A DNA stretch of 21,237 bases. Origin: a virus. A program made the translations under genes and the position numbers. Positions 7,535 to 14,566 of the stretch are shown here, piece after piece (position 1 is the stretch's first letter; the number at the start of each line of letters is the position of its first letter). The stretch spans positions 1 through 21,237 of the IMG/VR virus record IMGVR_UViG_3300022226_000023. One strand, 5' to 3'. The notes beneath the pieces are model-generated. The model was not told the DNA's origin, did not search any database, and saw nothing but the letters and a program-made list of their open reading frames with translations.

Positions 7535-8023
7535 TTAGAACCTCCCAAGCAGCCCGATTGAGCTGAGCATTTTATCCAGACCGTCGAAAGCCGCCTGCTC
7601 GGCCGCGCTGAAAGCTTTCGCCCAACCGCGCGGCAGAAACTTGTCCGCTTTGGGTCCGCGAGCTTTTTCGCTGATAATCCAATTCACATAGGGAAAACCG
7701 GTCGGGTACTTCGGCGAAATCCGGAGAGCCCTCTTGCGGTCGACGACGATCAGAAGAACCGGCGCGTTTCTGACAGCCCGAACCACGATCGATTTCATCA
7801 GCCGGCGCGTCACGCCTTTCGGAGCTTCGACCTTGGCCGCCCGGACTCCGATCTTCGCCGCCGGCCGCAACGCGCGTTTGGTCTCGGTTGGGCCTAGGCG
7901 TTTCACCGATCGCTCGAAGAGTGTGATCAGTTCGCGGTTTCCCCGTAACTCCAACGTCGCAGAGCCTTGGAGCGCGCGGCCACTGCTTCCGCTTCCTTGA
8001 CCGACAGACGCCATTGCTGCCAT
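7535..8023 (-). CDS. HK97 gp10-like tail completion protein (162 aa)
   Basis: I use the ATG at 8023 (MAAMASVGQGSG), with a GGGG run 5-9 bases upstream; the ATG at 8014 is also possible. Codons further upstream in the frame overlap the divergent plus-strand gene and look non-coding. The sequence has the typical gp10 features: a GNRELITLFERSVKRLG N-terminal helix, RALRPAAKIGVRAAKVEAP, a TRRLMKSIVVRAV strand, and a FPYVNWIISEKARGPKADKFLPRGW segment. These proteins act at the head-tail interface or in tail completion. The protein is basic. Its start codon faces that of a plus-strand gene only 9 bases away, leaving almost no non-coding space on either side. Confidence 0.8.
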   Translation of the reverse strand: MAAMASVGQGSGSSGRALQGSATLELRGNRELITLFERSVKRLGPTETKRALRPAAKIGVRAAKVEAPKGVTRRLMKSIVVRAVRNAPVLLIVVDRKRALRISPKYPTGFPYVNWIISEKARGPKADKFLPRGWAKAFSAAEQAAFDGLDKMLSSIGLLGRF

Positions 8024-8026
8024 CTT
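7997..8026 (+). promoter_or_regulatory. Weak candidate promoter for plus-strand cassette
   Basis: TTGACC at 7997-8002 matches the -35 consensus at 5 of 6 bases. With an 18-base spacer the -10 would be CATCTT at 8021-8026, which matches only 3 of 6. The start point would fall near 8033, the A of the first plus-strand ATG, so the transcript could be leaderless. No clear Shine-Dalgarno precedes that ATG, which agrees with this but does not prove it. Confidence 0.25.
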
Positions 8027-8032
8027 AACCCC

Positions 8033-8353
8033 ATGCGGATATTCCGAAACAAAAAGGCCGACAAGCTGGAAGTCAAGGTGAAGGCCCGCCCCGACGGGGG
8101 CCTGATCCGCAAGGTCAAGTTTCAATGGGGCGCGACGGGGCTGCTCGTCGTCCTCTCTGTGGTCACTGGGATGTTCGGCGTCGATCTCGACGCACTGATG
8201 CCGGGCTGGCGTGACACCTTACGTCCGGTCGCGGATCTTGCCGTGTGGTTCCACGAGAACGGACCCGCTTTCGCGGCCGCAATCGCCGCTCTCGTTACCC
8301 TCGTCGGTCAGGTGGTCCGCTCCGCAAAGGGCGACAAGCCGACCGAGGAGTAG
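8033..8353 (+). CDS. Small two-helix membrane protein, holin-like (106 aa)
   Basis: The ATG at 8033 opens a 106-residue frame on the opposite strand to all virion genes. The N-terminus is basic (MRIFRNKKADKLEVKVKARP). Two hydrophobic segments follow at about 33-50 (GATGLLVVLSVVTGMFGV) and 78-95 (GPAFAAAIAALVTLVGQVV), then a short charged tail. Size, two membrane helices and charged tail suit a class II holin, which would make holes in the inner membrane at lysis. The start is the weak point: no ribosome site is visible. An in-frame TTG at 7967 would add residues that look non-coding. The next gene starts 4 bases after the stop, so a small operon is likely. The holin role is an inference. Confidence 0.6.
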   Translation: MRIFRNKKADKLEVKVKARPDGGLIRKVKFQWGATGLLVVLSVVTGMFGVDLDALMPGWRDTLRPVADLAVWFHENGPAFAAAIAALVTLVGQVVRSAKGDKPTEE

Positions 8354-8357
8354 GCCC

Positions 8358-8699
8358 GTGCCTGAAGATGGTGTAGACAAGGTCATCGAAACCAGCCAGC
8401 GACTGATTGCGGTCGCTGCATCGGTGGCCTCAAGCGCGCCGATAGTTGCTTCCTGGCAAGCTGTCGTAACGCTGCTTGAGGGCATCCGCAACAGACAGGC
8501 TCGGCTTCAGGCGATCAATGCCGTCGCCGCCGTTCTAGAGCATCAAACCCGCGAGCTGCGAGAAGTCTGCCTCGCGTACAGAGGAAAGCCGATCCCGGTC
8601 GAAGACATCCTCATCGTTCACCAGAGTTCCCTGGAGCGCGCGCTAGCGCTGATCCGAGAGATCAGCGACCCCGATAACCGGAGGAAGCCTAAGCCATGA
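8358..8699 (+). CDS. Unknown small helical protein in plus-strand cassette (113 aa)
   Basis: The gene starts at a GTG at 8358, with GAGGAG at 8345-8350, 7 bases upstream and inside the end of the preceding gene. The last four bases overlap the next start as ATGA. The protein is largely helical: a moderately hydrophobic stretch at about 15-40 (RLIAVAASVASSAPIVASW), then an amphipathic part (RQARLQAINAVAAVLEHQTRELREV) with likely coiled-coil character, ending in a basic tail (NRRKPKP). I do not recognise the family. It could be an accessory to the neighbouring membrane proteins, such as an antiholin or regulator, but nothing in the sequence shows this. Confidence 0.7.
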   Translation: MPEDGVDKVIETSQRLIAVAASVASSAPIVASWQAVVTLLEGIRNRQARLQAINAVAAVLEHQTRELREVCLAYRGKPIPVEDILIVHQSSLERALALIREISDPDNRRKPKP

Positions 8700-9390: not shown

Positions 9391-10044
9391 TCAGGGCTGG
9401 CGCATCTGCATCGTCAAGATGCTGTTCGCGCCGAAGGGAACCTCGGCGATCGTCATGCCGGGCGCGATAACGACTTCCTCGCGGTTCATGTACCAGTGAG
9501 CAATCAGCATCTTCAGAGCGTGCTTCACGTCGCCCGGCACAGACGCAGGGTCAGTCCAACCCGCCTTGTATTCCATCTGCACGGCCGTTGCCGGGCGCAA
9601 GCCAGCCGTCGGCCAGGATTCGCCGCCAAGCAGCACAGCTCGGTCGACCTGCTTGGAATTGTCGAGGAAGACCTTCTCGGCCGTCGTCACCACATGCCAG
9701 GGCTGCAAGACGTTGTCCGCGTCCCAGTAGCTGATGGCCGAGATCTCAGTGACAGGTCCTACGGGCAGATCGAGGTAGTTCGCCGGTGGAAAGGCGTCGG
9801 TCCAGCTCCGCACGACTCGCTCTAGAAGCGAGAAGCTGTAGGCGTTCTGAACGAATGCCTCGGCCGCCGGTATCGCATCGGTGAACCATTCGTCCTCTAG
9901 GTCATCGTCAGCGCTCAGCTTGGCCTGAAGCTTCGCCTGCTTCACGCTTAAGACGCTGTCTTCGCTCGCCGTGACCACGTTGATTCCGCTGGATCGAACG
10001 GAGACGTTTAGAGTCCGGCCGATCTGTTCAAGTAGCGTTGCCAT
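9391..10044 (-). CDS. Head-tail connector (phiE125 gp8/HK97 gp6-like), 217 aa
   Basis: The ATG at 10044 has GAGGAG 5 bases upstream. The sequence shows the family layout: an N-terminal helical part (AKLSADDDLEDEWFTDAIPAAEAFVQ), a strand region with PANYLDLPVGPVTEISAISYWDADN, then AVQMEYKAGWTDPASVPGDVKHALKMLIAHWYMNREEV, a characteristic stretch of phiE125 gp8-type proteins, and a short C-terminal strand. These proteins form the ring directly under the portal. The gene is followed by the closure protein, the normal order, but is separated from the capsid by an unusual four-gene block. Start and family are well supported. Confidence 0.85.
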   Translation of the reverse strand: MATLLEQIGRTLNVSVRSSGINVVTASEDSVLSVKQAKLQAKLSADDDLEDEWFTDAIPAAEAFVQNAYSFSLLERVVRSWTDAFPPANYLDLPVGPVTEISAISYWDADNVLQPWHVVTTAEKVFLDNSKQVDRAVLLGGESWPTAGLRPATAVQMEYKAGWTDPASVPGDVKHALKMLIAHWYMNREEVVIAPGMTIAEVPFGANSILTMQMRQP

Positions 10045-10056
10045 GGCAGCTCCTCG

Positions 10057-10440
10057 TCAAAGGGTGATCGGTCCGCCCTGCGTCGGAAGGCTATCGGCCG
10101 GGAACATCCCGAGCGACTTCGCCGCGTCGGCCGGAGTAAGCTCCGAGTCGTCGATGAAGATGAGCTCGATAACGTACGGCCCGTCCCTGAGCAGCGCGGC
10201 GTCCGCTTGCGCGATCCGAACTGTTGCGCGCGGCGGGCTCGCGGAGGTATCCAGGTTAACCGTCGAGCCGTTGGGCGTGTTCGCGCCGGAGATCAGCTCA
10301 AGATCCGGGGTCGCCTGCCCTGCCGTCTTCGACACCTTGGCCCGGACCTTGTCGCCCGCTGCCATCTCCAACGGCACGCCGCCGATGCCTTCCAGGTCAA
10401 ACGGGATATCGTTCGTCCGATTCTTAGATATCTCGATCAT
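10057..10440 (-). CDS. Unknown beta-rich virion-associated protein (127 aa)
   Basis: The ATG at 10440 overlaps the stop of the 980-residue gene as ATGA, so the two are translationally coupled. The protein is rich in short strands: an opening MIEISKNRTNDIPFDLE, then GDKVRAKVSKTAG, LELISGANTPNG, ATVRIAQADAALLRDGPYVIELIF and a Pro-rich C-terminus. The pattern recalls the N-terminal immunoglobulin-like modules of phage baseplate/receptor-binding scaffold proteins (BppU-type), where a polymerisation or input-limit formula is replaced by strand pairs. That is only a resemblance. Its coupling to the repeat protein suggests the two form one structure on the virion. Confidence 0.5.
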   Translation of the reverse strand: MIEISKNRTNDIPFDLEGIGGVPLEMAAGDKVRAKVSKTAGQATPDLELISGANTPNGSTVNLDTSASPPRATVRIAQADAALLRDGPYVIELIFIDDSELTPADAAKSLGMFPADSLPTQGGPITL

Positions 10441-13379
10441 TGGACTCGCTTTGCGCTCGGCCTTGAATCGGAGGCTCGCTTTGCTCGGGCTTGTTGGACG
10501 CGGACGGCTCCGATCCCGCCTGCGACTAGCTTAGCCGATCCCGGGGTGAAGTCAGCAGCGCCTTCGACTTGCCCGGTTGTGATCAGGCTGCCGGTCGCTG
10601 TCAAAGTGGCTGATCCTAGGGCGCGCTGAAGCCCGGTCGTGGCCAGTGTTCCCGAGGCGCTCAGCGTCGCGTTTCCAGCTGCGATGACATCGCCGGTAAA
10701 GCTGGCGGCTCCGCTAGCCGTCAGCGTGGCAGTCCCGGCAGCTATTGCCGCGCCACTGAAAGCGGCCGTGCCGCTCGCCTGGAGCGTCGACGTGCCGGCC
10801 GCAATTGCAGCGCCCGCCGCCGCCAAGGATCCGGACGCCTGCAAGGTCGCAGTCCCGTTGACGGTCCCGAGCTCCTGGCCGGTCGTAGTGAGCGAGCCTG
10901 TCGCTTGAAGCGTTGCTGCCGCTATCGAGACCTCGATGCCGTCCGCCGCTAGCGAGCCGCTAGCGTCAAGCGTGGCAGTCCCGGAAACGATCGCTGCGCC
11001 GGCCGACGTCGTCAGAGAACCGGAGGCCTGGAGTGTCGCCGTACCCGAGGCGATCGCTGCGCCGGCTGCCGCTAGCGACCCAGCCGCTCCCAGCGTCGCC
11101 GTCCCGTCGGCGATGGCCGCGCCGGCTGTCGCCAGAGAACCGGACGCCTGGAGCGTGGCTGTTCCGTTCACGGTCCCGAGCTGGGTTCCGGTGGTGATCA
11201 GCGAGCCGGTTGCGCCGAGTGTCGCTGTGCCGGTAGCGATCCCGGCGCCGTCCGTTGTCAGCGAGCCGGTAGCGGCCAGCGTCGACGTTGCCGGCAGAAC
11301 GACAGAGCCTGTCGCGGCGAGCGATCCGGTCGCCGCCAGTGTGGCCGTCCCTGCCACGAGAGCTGCGCCGTTCGTTGTCAGCGAGCCGCTAGCCGCTAGC
11401 GTTGATGTGCCGCTCAGAATGCCCGCGCCGGAGGTGGTGAGAGAGCCAGTTGCGGACAGGGTCGCCGTACCGTTGACCGTTCCGACTTGTGCGCCGGTCG
11501 TAATGAGCGAGCCCGTTGCGCCGAGCGTTGAAGTGCCGTTTGCGATCGCCGCGCCGGCGGAAGTGAACGATCCTGTAGCGCCGAGCGTCGAGCTCGCCGG
11601 CACGACGGTCAAGCCAGTCGTTACGAGCGAGCCTGTGGCTGCTAGGGTTGCTGTCCCAGTCAGCAGCGTCGCGCCCGTCGCGGCAAGGCTCCCGGCTGCA
11701 ACCAGCGTCGCCGTTCCGCTCAGGATTCCAGAGCCGGCCGAAGCAAGAGATCCGGTCGCGCCCAAGGTAGAGGAACCAGATAGAAGCCCAGCGCCGGCGG
11801 CAGCGAGTGAGCCAGTCGCCCCCAGGGTCGCCGTACCGGTTGCCAGTGCGAAGCCTGTGAAGGCGACAGAGCCGGTCGCGGCCAGCGTGGACGTGCCTGA
11901 AAGCAGACCCGCGCCGGTCGCCGAAAGCGAGCCCGACGCCGCCAGCGTTGCGGTCCCGCTCAGCAGCCCGGCGCCCGTCGCGGCAAAGTCGCCAGTCGCC
12001 GCTAGCGTGGCAGTTCCTGAGGCCAGCGAGAAGCCATCAGTAGCGAGTGAGCCAGTCGCCGCGAGCGTTGCCGCGCCATTGACGACGACAACCCCAGTAG
12101 CCGCCAGCGAGCCGCTGGCAGCGAGAGTCGCCGAGCCGCTCCGTATCGTCGCGCCGTCCGTCGTGAGCGAACCGGTAGCCGCCAGCGTGGCAGTCCCGCT
12201 CCGTATGCCGGCGCCGTCTGTTGTCAACGAACCAGTCGCGGCCATCGTGGCCGTGCCGTTGACGGTGCCAACGCTGGCAAACAGCTGAAGGGCGACGACG
12301 GACGAATCCGACATACCGGCCGTGATGCCGGTCGATTCCGCCCGCCATTGCGTCTTGATGGTGTGCGACGCAGCAGTGTAGGACTTCCGGAAGAAAACGA
12401 ACTGGGGATACCTGTTCGAGGCGTCGAACGGTTCTTGCTCGAATTCGTGATTGGTCGCGCCGTCGTCGTCGACCTTCGCGTAGACTGACTGATTCGTCGC
12501 GCTGCCGTCGAATGAGCCGCCGGCGAGCACGAGGTGGTCGCCCAGCAGGAACGTATCGGTTAGCGTCGCCTTGTCTTGGTAGCTCGGCGAGCTGGTCGTG
12601 CTGCGTCCGCTCGATTCAGCTGCATAGGAACCGTCAAAGCTGTCGAGCCGGAGCGCGATGATGCGCTGATCCTCAATTCCGACGGTCTGGTTTACCTCGG
12701 TCGCGAATTGGATTTTGATCGTGTGCGACGCTGCCGTCAGCGTTACTTTGCGAATCCACGCAGGCCCGTGGATCTCGTCGGCCGCGTCTCGCTCTTCGAT
12801 CTCGAATTCGCACCATGGCGTGCCATCGACGTCGATCCGGGCCCGCGCCGCGTTGTTCGATGTGCGATCCAGCGAGGCGCTGGCGATGATCAGATAGTCG
12901 CCGGCCGTTGCCGGGGTGAATGTCAGCGAGGCTCCGTCGCCAAACGTCGAGCTCGTCGTGGTGTCTCGGGTGAGAACTTCCGCGTCTTCGTCGGCCGCGT
13001 CGGCTTTCAGGGCCCACAGTCGGGCGTCGCGAATGTAGCCAGTGCCGGACGTGAGCTTCGCGAATTGAATCTGGAATGTCTGCGAAGCCGGCGAAGCCCC
13101 AAAGCTGACCTTGACGACGCAGCCGTTGTTCAGGAACTCGACGTTCGGATCGGAGAGGCGGCCGCAATCCCATTGCGCCAGCTCGGCGGAGCCAGTGACA
13201 TGATACAGCCGGTGGATCGTCGAAGCGGTGTCGCTTGAGCGGATCCGGCTGGTCGCGAAGATGTAGTAATCGGAGTTGGCGTCAGGGGTGAAAGTCAGGC
13301 CGACTTTCGAGGTGTACGTCGAAGAGGTTGTGGTGCTTTCGCCGTTGCTCTCTGCGAAGTGATTTGTCCGGGCGGCCAT
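10437..13379 (-). CDS. Large repeat-rich virion protein (980 aa)
   Basis: The protein has three parts. Residues 1 to about 370 hold three tandem copies of a beta-sandwich-like domain of about 120 residues; each has a TFTPxxxxDYxI-type strand or its relic, an ASHTIKxQ (or SQTFQIQF) motif and an ALxL-type ending. Residues 375-941 are about 28 copies of a 20-residue unit of the form GTATLxATGSLxxxGAxIxS. Residues 942-980 are a Lys/Arg-rich tail. There is no signal peptide or membrane segment. The ATG at 13379 follows the previous stop by 1 base. The layout (globular head, long Gly/Ala/Thr solenoid) suits a fibre or adhesin. Its place in the head module hints at a head fibre; that is inferred. 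The repeat is GC-rich but codon phase is kept throughout. Confidence 0.75.
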   Translation of the reverse strand: MAARTNHFAESNGESTTTSSTYTSKVGLTFTPDANSDYYIFATSRIRSSDTASTIHRLYHVTGSAELAQWDCGRLSDPNVEFLNNGCVVKVSFGASPASQTFQIQFAKLTSGTGYIRDARLWALKADAADEDAEVLTRDTTTSSTFGDGASLTFTPATAGDYLIIASASLDRTSNNAARARIDVDGTPWCEFEIEERDAADEIHGPAWIRKVTLTAASHTIKIQFATEVNQTVGIEDQRIIALRLDSFDGSYAAESSGRSTTSSPSYQDKATLTDTFLLGDHLVLAGGSFDGSATNQSVYAKVDDDGATNHEFEQEPFDASNRYPQFVFFRKSYTAASHTIKTQWRAESTGITAGMSDSSVVALQLFASVGTVNGTATMAATGSLTTDGAGIRSGTATLAATGSLTTDGATIRSGSATLAASGSLAATGVVVVNGAATLAATGSLATDGFSLASGTATLAATGDFAATGAGLLSGTATLAASGSLSATGAGLLSGTSTLAATGSVAFTGFALATGTATLGATGSLAAAGAGLLSGSSTLGATGSLASAGSGILSGTATLVAAGSLAATGATLLTGTATLAATGSLVTTGLTVVPASSTLGATGSFTSAGAAIANGTSTLGATGSLITTGAQVGTVNGTATLSATGSLTTSGAGILSGTSTLAASGSLTTNGAALVAGTATLAATGSLAATGSVVLPATSTLAATGSLTTDGAGIATGTATLGATGSLITTGTQLGTVNGTATLQASGSLATAGAAIADGTATLGAAGSLAAAGAAIASGTATLQASGSLTTSAGAAIVSGTATLDASGSLAADGIEVSIAAATLQATGSLTTTGQELGTVNGTATLQASGSLAAAGAAIAAGTSTLQASGTAAFSGAAIAAGTATLTASGAASFTGDVIAAGNATLSASGTLATTGLQRALGSATLTATGSLITTGQVEGAADFTPGSAKLVAGGIGAVRVQQARAKRASDSRPSAKRVQ
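10557..12257 (-). repeat. About 28 tandem 60-base units (20-residue repeat)
   Basis: The DNA shows a 60-base period. The protein unit is G(T/S)(A/S)TL-xA(T/S)GSL-xxxGAxIxx, nearly all exactly 20 residues. Three units (13, 18 and 23) are 22 residues long and end in GTVN, one (unit 21) has 21. A GTVN also precedes unit 1. The units are not identical, so the array has diverged by point change and, in its C-terminal half, seems to have grown in blocks of five units. Confidence 0.85.
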
Positions 13380-13380
13380 C

Positions 13381-13743
13381 CTAGGAGCCTAAGTCTAGGT
13401 TGTCGGCAATCCATCGCACCATCTTTTTCAGGAACACCCGGACAGCCGCTGTAGTGTTGATCGGATCGATCTGGTTCGTCTCGATCCCGACTATCCAGGC
13501 TTCCAGTTCCTGCGCATTCCAAGCGGCTTCGTCCAGCCAGGCGTGGCTCGTGATAAAGGCCTGCGCTGTGGCTTGCTGGGGCGCTGTCAGCACGATATCC
13601 GTTTCTGCCGTTGTCGTCAGCGCGCCTTGGTCGGTCGTGACCGAGAGGATGTTTACCCCGCCGAACTGGCTTTGCAGTTCTTCCTGCACCTGGCCAGCGC
13701 CGGGGTTCGATCCGCCGGGAAGCGTGAACGTATAGAACGGCAC
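13381..13743 (-). CDS. Unknown small virion-block protein (120 aa)
   Basis: The gene starts at a GTG at 13743 with a weak AGGGG about 9 bases upstream and ends one base before the 980-residue gene. The N-terminal half is polar and beta-rich (MPFYTFTLPGGSNPGAG, SVTTDQGALTTTAETDIVL); the C-terminal half has helices with EAAWNAQELEAWIVGIETNQ and ends in FLKKMVRWIADNLDL. No family is recognised. The tight packing with the genes on both sides suggests a part of the same accessory virion module, possibly a chaperone or linker of the repeat protein. Confidence 0.6.
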   Translation of the reverse strand: MPFYTFTLPGGSNPGAGQVQEELQSQFGGVNILSVTTDQGALTTTAETDIVLTAPQQATAQAFITSHAWLDEAAWNAQELEAWIVGIETNQIDPINTTAAVRVFLKKMVRWIADNLDLGS

Positions 13744-13755
13744 TGGAGGAGTCCC

Positions 13756-14502
13756 CTAGTCCAGCGTCATCGTGATGTCACCCACGAGCAGCCGGAAGGT
13801 GTTACCCGAGCCGACCGCTTGATCAGGTGACTGATCGCCGCCCCAAATGAAGTTGCCAGCTGAGACTGCATCGAAGATGCCGGCGTGCGTGACCGTGACG
13901 GCCGGCATGCCGGTGAAGTCTTCTTGCGAGTCGTTCTGGATTTGTCCGGCGGCCGCCGCGCCGTAGCTCGTGAGCTGCCGCGCATAGCTGCCGCCAACAA
14001 CCTCTGACGTTCCCGTGTTGCCAGGGTCGGCGGTGTGCAGGCTTGTATACGGGTTGGTGACGGAGAACGACGTGTTGTTGAAGATCGCGTCCAGAATTGC
14101 GTCGGCCGCAAAGGTAGCCAGTCCAGTCACGCCAGTCAGAACGGCGTCGAGTGCGCCAATCGCGAACTCGAAGGTGTTGTTGACCGCGACCACCTGGCTC
14201 GCATCGAGCGCTTGCCCCCAAATGAAGTTGCCGCCGGAAACTGCGTCGAAGATGCCGACGTGCGTGACCGTGACGGCCGGCATCAGAGCGTACGTGATAG
14301 CCGCGTCGTTGTCGAGCGCCTCGGATGACGCGGCTCCGAAAGAGCCAAGCTGACGCGCGTAGCTGCCGCCAGTAACTTCTGCTGTGCCGGTCTCCCCAGG
14401 GTCGGCATCATGCAGAGAGACGTAGGGCGTAGTGACTGCGAATCCTGTGGCGTTGCCGATCGCGTCAAGGATTGCCAGTTCGGCAAAGTTGGAAAGGCTC
14501 AT
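13756..14502 (-). CDS. Tandem-duplicated tail-fibre-type domain protein (248 aa)
   Basis: The protein consists of two copies of one domain, residues 1 to about 124 and 125-248. Matching landmarks are SLHDADPG at 29-36 against SLHTADPG at 154-161, GGSYARQL, MPAVTVTH(V/A)GIFDAVS and GNFIWG, all offset by 125 residues. A single copy of this 'SLHTADPG..GGSYARQ' domain is a common small phage virion protein, often labelled tail fibre protein. The ATG at 14502 has GAGGAA about 8 bases upstream. Two in-frame copies in one chain are unusual to my knowledge. It follows the capsid terminator and leads the accessory block, so a surface role on head or neck is plausible; this is inferred from position. 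Confidence 0.72.
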   Translation of the reverse strand: MSLSNFAELAILDAIGNATGFAVTTPYVSLHDADPGETGTAEVTGGSYARQLGSFGAASSEALDNDAAITYALMPAVTVTHVGIFDAVSGGNFIWGQALDASQVVAVNNTFEFAIGALDAVLTGVTGLATFAADAILDAIFNNTSFSVTNPYTSLHTADPGNTGTSEVVGGSYARQLTSYGAAAAGQIQNDSQEDFTGMPAVTVTHAGIFDAVSAGNFIWGGDQSPDQAVGSGNTFRLLVGDITMTLD

Positions 14503-14530: not shown

Positions 14531-14566
14531 AAAAGCCCTGGGGCCGCCGAAGCATGGCCCCAGGGC
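14531..14566 (-). terminator. Intrinsic terminator after the capsid genes
   Basis: On the minus strand an 11-base perfect stem (GCCCTGGGGCC pairing with GGCCCCAGGGC) with a 10-base loop is followed by TTTTA. It lies 23 bases after the stop of the decoration gene and 29 bases before the next ATG. It would cap high-level capsid transcripts and reduce readthrough into the accessory block. Confidence 0.8.

Follow-up and report, generated by a model that had tools for sequence, protein, structure and literature searches.

In podophage GP4, Zheng et al. (2023) reportedly found five gp80 dimers linked by an elongated rope protein and anchored to a 15-fold adaptor. The Anabaena myophage A-1(L) carries a bead-chain neck fibre, gp82-gp81-gp80, in which five neck-attached chains of repeated beads, ~100 nm, sit on a 15-mer ring and have a distal carbohydrate-binding-module fold (PMC10966104). 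Here we compare these fibres with a gene block in a 21,237-base linear virus record, which was analysed at its full length (referred to as the window) and is probably a fragment.

Results

A four-gene block between the decoration-like and connector genes

The minus strand of the window reads as the structural module of an HK97-type siphophage (Table 1). The decoration-like protein that precedes the block also showed weak similarity to decoration or cement proteins in the PDB (8cjz_B, E=0.011; 3j4u_H, E=0.07). Searches of viral and genome contigs with the capsid and rope sequences found no close relatives of the window. The first-pass annotation had described four genes here, set behind a strong terminator between the capsid or decoration gene and the connector, and all four ORFs are present where it had placed them. 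The gene said to hold a duplicated fibre-type domain encodes two halves that are 58% identical over 120 aa. The 980-residue repeat protein (hereafter the rope) has a 20-aa period (z ~19) with ~28 units, a few of which are 21-22 residues long, and the 127-residue protein is translationally coupled to it, the start of its gene overlapping the rope stop in the sequence ATGA. The terminator-like hairpin (14566-14535) likewise proved strong, with an 11-bp G+C-rich stem, GCCCTGGGGCC, a TTTT tail and a dG of -37.1 kcal/mol for 76 nt (z -3.0). It is the sole hairpin on the minus strand with a perfect stem of at least 9 bp and at least 4 T, and it was missed by the automatic scan because its loop is 10 nt.

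Two sets of ORFs run against the module. Plus-strand ORFs at 7967-8699 lie between the gp10-like and head-closure genes, one of them with a hydrophobic, membrane-like stretch. A 450-aa antisense ORF (10936-12288, plus strand) spans the rope repeats and is most likely a by-product of repetitive DNA.

Table 1. Features of the window and the basis on which each was assigned
Feature	Positions	Strand	Assignment or place
TerS-like ORF		minus	position and appearance
TerL		minus	PHROG_9
Portal		minus	PHROG_12
Head maturation protease		minus	PHROG_53
HK97-type major capsid protein		minus	PHROG_10, E=5e-40
Decoration-like protein, 138 aa	14589..15005	minus	PHROG_5707, E=8.5e-21; just before block
Intrinsic-terminator-like hairpin	14535..14566	minus	boundary of decoration-like gene and fibre block
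Four-gene block	10057..14502	minus	between decoration-like and connector genes
Bead (248 aa), two tandem copies of the Gp80 domain known from GP4 fibre I	13756..14502	minus	
120-aa protein	13381..13743	minus	between bead and rope
Rope, 980 aa: three N-terminal jelly-roll-like domains, ~28 repeats, basic C-terminal tail	10437..13379	minus	
N-terminal part of rope, with three ~120-aa domains that resemble one another	12264..13379	minus	alignment
Rope domain 2 (the one modelled)	12639-12980	minus	
Rope repeat array, GTATLAATGSLxTxGAGIxS, period 20 aa	10557..12257	minus	
127-aa small beta-sandwich protein, candidate fibre-neck adaptor	10057..10440	minus	
gp6-like head-tail connector (head-tail adaptor)	9391..10044	minus	PHROG_442, E=1.2e-19; PF05135, E=2.1e-6; next after block
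Head closure Hc1		minus	downstream of head-tail adaptor
gp10-like and completion-like proteins		minus	position and appearance
Tail tube		minus	downstream of completion-like protein
PHROG_709 protein		minus	chaperone position, after tail tube
Tape measure, 989 aa		minus	
PHROG_644 protein	2222-2635	minus	downstream of tape measure
Fibre-like protein, 340 aa		minus	between PHROG_644 gene and hub-like ORF
Tail-hub-like ORF, runs off contig	2-1177	minus	position and appearance

The bead and the rope

The 248-aa protein matched Pfam PF23140 ('Podophage GP4 fiber I protein gp80') over two stretches, passing the cut-off (E=3.1e-50), as well as PHROG_240 (E=2.9e-57) and, in the PDB, 8jou_a (E=1.8e-9), which belongs to a structure holding 10 chains of Gp80. 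On the strength of the PF23140 and 8jou_a matches, we identify it by homology as a fibre-bead protein. The GP4 bead is said to be a dimer; in the window the Gp80 dimer would be covalent, as a tandem fusion. The tandem form recurs in a Desulfofustis phage, there beside a repeat protein of a different period (strongest at lag 14, lag 42 being close behind). Three other loci (L061, L062 and L082) have two Gp80 ORFs that are adjacent or overlapping, possibly an unfused or frameshifted state of the tandem bead.

The rope had no match in Pfam, PHROGs, the PDB or phage records. Its N-terminal part, ~370 residues, consists of three similar beta domains. Domain 2 was aligned with its siblings, domains 1 and 3, and with domains of the relatives L011 and L014 described below, and yielded an AF2 model with a pLDDT of 81.6 and a pTM of 0.73. 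The best Foldseek matches of this model included the EclA sugar-binding domain, the TNF-like lectin PLTL, C1q-like domains, the short-tail-fibre CBD of cyanophage A-1(L) and CBM35/CBM6. Since the TM-scores were ~0.4-0.75, the lectin-like jelly roll that the model predicts for domain 2 is a statement of fold and not proof of sugar binding.

The two small proteins

The 120-aa protein had no convincing family match in Pfam or PHROGs. By eye, its positional counterpart in L011, L014 and L015 is a short protein whose gene immediately precedes that of the rope, but the two showed no sequence similarity and no phmmer match. The single-sequence AF2 model of the 127-aa protein (pLDDT 67.8, pTM 0.63) is a small beta sandwich whose fold neighbours are only generic and loose, of Ig/LtfC-like type. 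Searches with hhalign and HMMs linked its sequence neither to Gp77 nor to any solved chain (the hhalign probability against the Gp77 alignment was 0.04%). The PF23148 profile (Gp77 fibre-tail adaptor) had no match anywhere in the record, although a Gp77 gene could lie outside it because the record is probably a fragment. The 127-aa protein is put forward as a candidate fibre-neck adaptor.

Bead genes are regularly accompanied by repeat proteins

We gathered 188 Gp80 loci, drawing on annotated phages, on IMG/VR and on the window itself, and measured residue-level periodicity in all ORFs of 110 aa or more. Strong periodicity (z>7 at lag 20, 40 or 60) was found in 109 of 936 ORFs near Gp80 (gene ranks -2 to +6) and in none of the 573 farther away. 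Where the flank was sufficient (downstream 3.5 kb or more, upstream 800 bases or more), a rope-type protein, called at lags 20, 21, 40, 42-44 or 60 with z>6, was present in 101 of 127 loci. Most of the 188 loci are mutually related and clusters of repeat proteins are the proper independent count: at 45% identity there are 29, with a modal period of 20, 21, 40, 42, 44 or 60 in 22, and at 35% identity there are 16, with a period of 20, 21 or 40 in 10, the counted clusters including one collagen-like Gly-X-Y protein (L034) that passed the period filter at lag 21, was rejected as a rope and is to be discounted.

Below the threshold, the ropes of BcepMigl, PBC5 and C72C1 also peak at 20, that of Gordonia phage Gmala1 at 60/40/20, and those of mycobacteriophages at 18-19. 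Prophage loci from genome contigs added further bead-rope cases that are less uniform, and several Gp80 loci of this prophage set had no periodic neighbour. A universal repeat consensus obtained by EM was weak, meaning that the repeats hold to their period better than to their residues. Judged from sequence, the bead gene family is regularly paired with a 20-residue-repeat protein in many unrelated phages.

Position and virion annotation in relatives

In Burkholderia phage BcepIL02, the bead (gp55), a 20-aa-repeat rope (gp56; ~285 aa, ~11 repeat units) and gp57 are consecutive and all annotated as virion-associated. BcepIL02 gp57 matched PF23148, 'GP4 fiber-tail adaptor gp77' (E=5.8e-22), and 8jou_D (E=3e-20), of which there are 3 chains in 8jou. 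Three gp77 chains against ten of Gp80 would be compatible with one fifth of a 15-mer ring carrying a fibre of ten beads; the phage DEV paper mentions a 15:12 mismatch as in GP4 (PMC10925440). The bead, repeat protein and adaptor of BcepMigl are likewise annotated as virion proteins, and the annotation of the phiM5 bead records its detection in particles. Ropes from three GP4 kin had no credible chain match in the PDB.

Four other loci (L011, L012, L014 and L015; IMGVR_UViG_3300043167_000020 and others) resemble the window in gene order. In L011, L012 and L015 the order is capsid, decoration, bead, small proteins, a long rope, a 125/127-aa protein and connector, and L014 follows the order of the window as far as the rope. 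The ropes of L011, L012 and L014 have N-terminal domains homologous to those of the window rope, whereas the N-terminal region of the L015 rope differs. Unlike the window with its tandem bead, all four have a single-domain bead, extra small genes from bead to rope, and other capsid and tube types. The statement in the first-pass annotation that a connector normally lies close behind the capsid gene is borne out by L105, a distant relative of the window by TerL, portal, capsid and connector, where the connector (9201) comes directly behind the capsid gene (ends 8949). The Gp80 cassette of L105, whose rope is short and weak, stands instead between the portal and protease genes; compared with the window, this placement makes the block a movable unit of the head module.

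A different arrangement is found in a Ferrovum myxofaciens prophage (L201, 9047-10417), where rope-like repeats and the baseplate hub attachment domain PF09931 (E=1e-33) form a single protein, and a Gp80 gene lies upstream of it. This fusion is a tail-tip version of the rope. Its repeats lie N-terminal to the hub attachment domain, which suggests that the C-terminal side of the rope is virion-proximal. In mycobacteriophages and Gordonia phages, the run of minor tail genes ends with Gp80. Term searches of the text of mycobacteriophage cryo-EM papers (Douge, Claus/Corndog/Mysterious) returned neither Douge gp21/gp22 nor a GP4-type rope/bead chain.

We also observed that in many IMG/VR relatives (L207-L226) the genes next to PHROG_644 encode proteins with repeats of 20-23 residues, in which an EAFG motif is common; in the window, the PHROG_644 gene is upstream of the repeat-bearing tail-hub-like ORF. 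PHROG_644 has no sequence similarity to Gp80, and together with its repeat protein it looks like a second bead/rope pair.

Discussion

We propose, as the probable reading, that the block encodes a bead-and-rope fibre like GP4 fibre I, in which the rope repeats are docking sites for beads, the fibre is anchored at the neck and the lectin domains are distal. A Gp80-type bead, fused as a covalent dimer, would bind repeatedly along the elongated rope, and the 20-residue repeats would be equally spaced docking sites, such that repeat number sets both bead number and fibre length. The ~28 repeats would then take ~28 bead domains or 14 tandem beads, over a length of at most ~185 nm when fully extended. 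The three N-terminal jelly-roll domains would form the outer end of the fibre and recognise a surface sugar, and anchoring to the neck would fall to the C-terminal tail, either by itself or together with the 127-aa beta-sandwich protein. We hold more tentatively, at somewhat less than an even chance, a broader proposal in which the rope is a molecular ruler taking one Gp80 domain per 20-residue repeat, so that repeat number dictates the length and valency of the fibre, and the module has moved between head/neck and tail tip among tailed phages and become fused to hubs, with PHROG_644 as a second, unrelated family of beads using the same 20-23-residue principle. One repeat per bead comes from a single data point, the 10 Gp80 chains of 8jou set against the ~11 repeats of BcepIL02.

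Where on the virion such a fibre sits is not fixed by gene order, because of the L201 hub fusion and the actinobacteriophage Gp80 genes that close the minor tail gene run. The same observations speak for mounting the same bead-and-rope fibre on the tail tip or hub, its gene position being incidental. We consider this unlikely, if worth keeping in mind, since capsid and connector genes enclose the cassette in the window, L011, L012 and L015, as portal and protease genes do in L105. Moreover, the window's tail-hub-like ORF (2-1177) begins with its own array of ~6 repeats of 21 residues (z 7.5), so the tail tip seems separately equipped, which argues mildly for the block being a second, separate device. 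Neck attachment is plausible, in line with gene position, the GP4 precedent and the separate hub array. The first-pass annotation had suggested a dedicated head- or neck-attached apparatus; the fibre part of this is well supported by the Gp80 bead family and the accompanying repeat protein, whereas attachment to head or neck is only plausible, as the same modules occur in the tail modules of the Ferrovum prophage and the mycobacteriophages.

The remaining alternatives dispense with beads on a rope. Trimeric shafts are typically built of short Gly-rich beta repeats, and the 980-aa protein could be a self-standing trimeric beta-spiral shaft, like that of adenovirus, with lectin heads and with Gp80 as a cap or a separate fibre. 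We give this only a small chance, since the 20-residue period goes with Gp80 specifically, across dissimilar repeat proteins, and since ten Gp80 chains in 8jou are what a strung bead would give. It is highly improbable that Gp80-type proteins decorate the capsid shell: the solved homologue is a fibre component according to its Pfam description, and many Gp80 genes lie in tail modules, even though PHROG_240 is annotated 'head protein' and the bead gene follows the capsid genes. Finally, the hairpin parts the block from the capsid genes, as might be expected of non-virion cargo (secreted or host-surface proteins) behind its own terminator. However, L011, L014 and L015 keep the block with no comparable hairpin seen by eye, the homologues in BcepIL02, BcepMigl and phiM5 are annotated as virion-associated, and the block shares its strand with the connector genes at tight spacing, which leaves this idea scarcely credible.

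If the bead-and-rope reading is true, the pairing would mark chain fibres at the level of genes in siphophages that have none annotated, and would offer a candidate for the rope that partners the Gp80 fibre. It would also give a simple rule for fibre length, with one 20-residue repeat for each bead, open to test by repeat deletion, and an adhesion device that moves as a module between neck and tail tip.

Compared with GP4, the window bead belongs by sequence to the same family as fibre I (gp80), which is found in PDB 8jou with the adaptor gp77 (PF23140, PF23148), and the window shares with the GP4 kin BcepIL02 and BcepMigl the gene set of bead, rope and small protein. The neighbouring 20-residue-repeat protein, of a kind paired with the bead in many phages, is a candidate counterpart of the GP4 rope. 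The differences are that GP4 is a podophage, whereas the window comes from a siphophage with an HK97-type head and a covalently duplicated bead; that the window rope has ~980 aa and ~28 repeats, whereas that of BcepIL02, a phage akin to GP4 but distinct from it, has ~285 aa and ~11; and that the window has lectin-like domains on the rope and a 127-aa protein not recognisably gp77. The beads of A-1(L) are trimers joined head to tail without a rope protein, whereas the window has a rope; none of the A-1(L) chains was matched by bead or rope in the PDB sequence search, where only gp82N of that fibre is solved. The first-pass annotation knew of no description of such an apparatus, which does not hold for chain-like neck fibres, described in GP4 (8jou, PF23140/PF23148) and A-1(L) (PMC10966104), but seems to hold for the siphophage version and the bead-rope pairing. 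Two things appear to be new: a probable chain fibre in an HK97-type siphophage whose bead is covalently duplicated and whose rope is very long, and the association of the Gp80 bead with a 20-residue-repeat rope.
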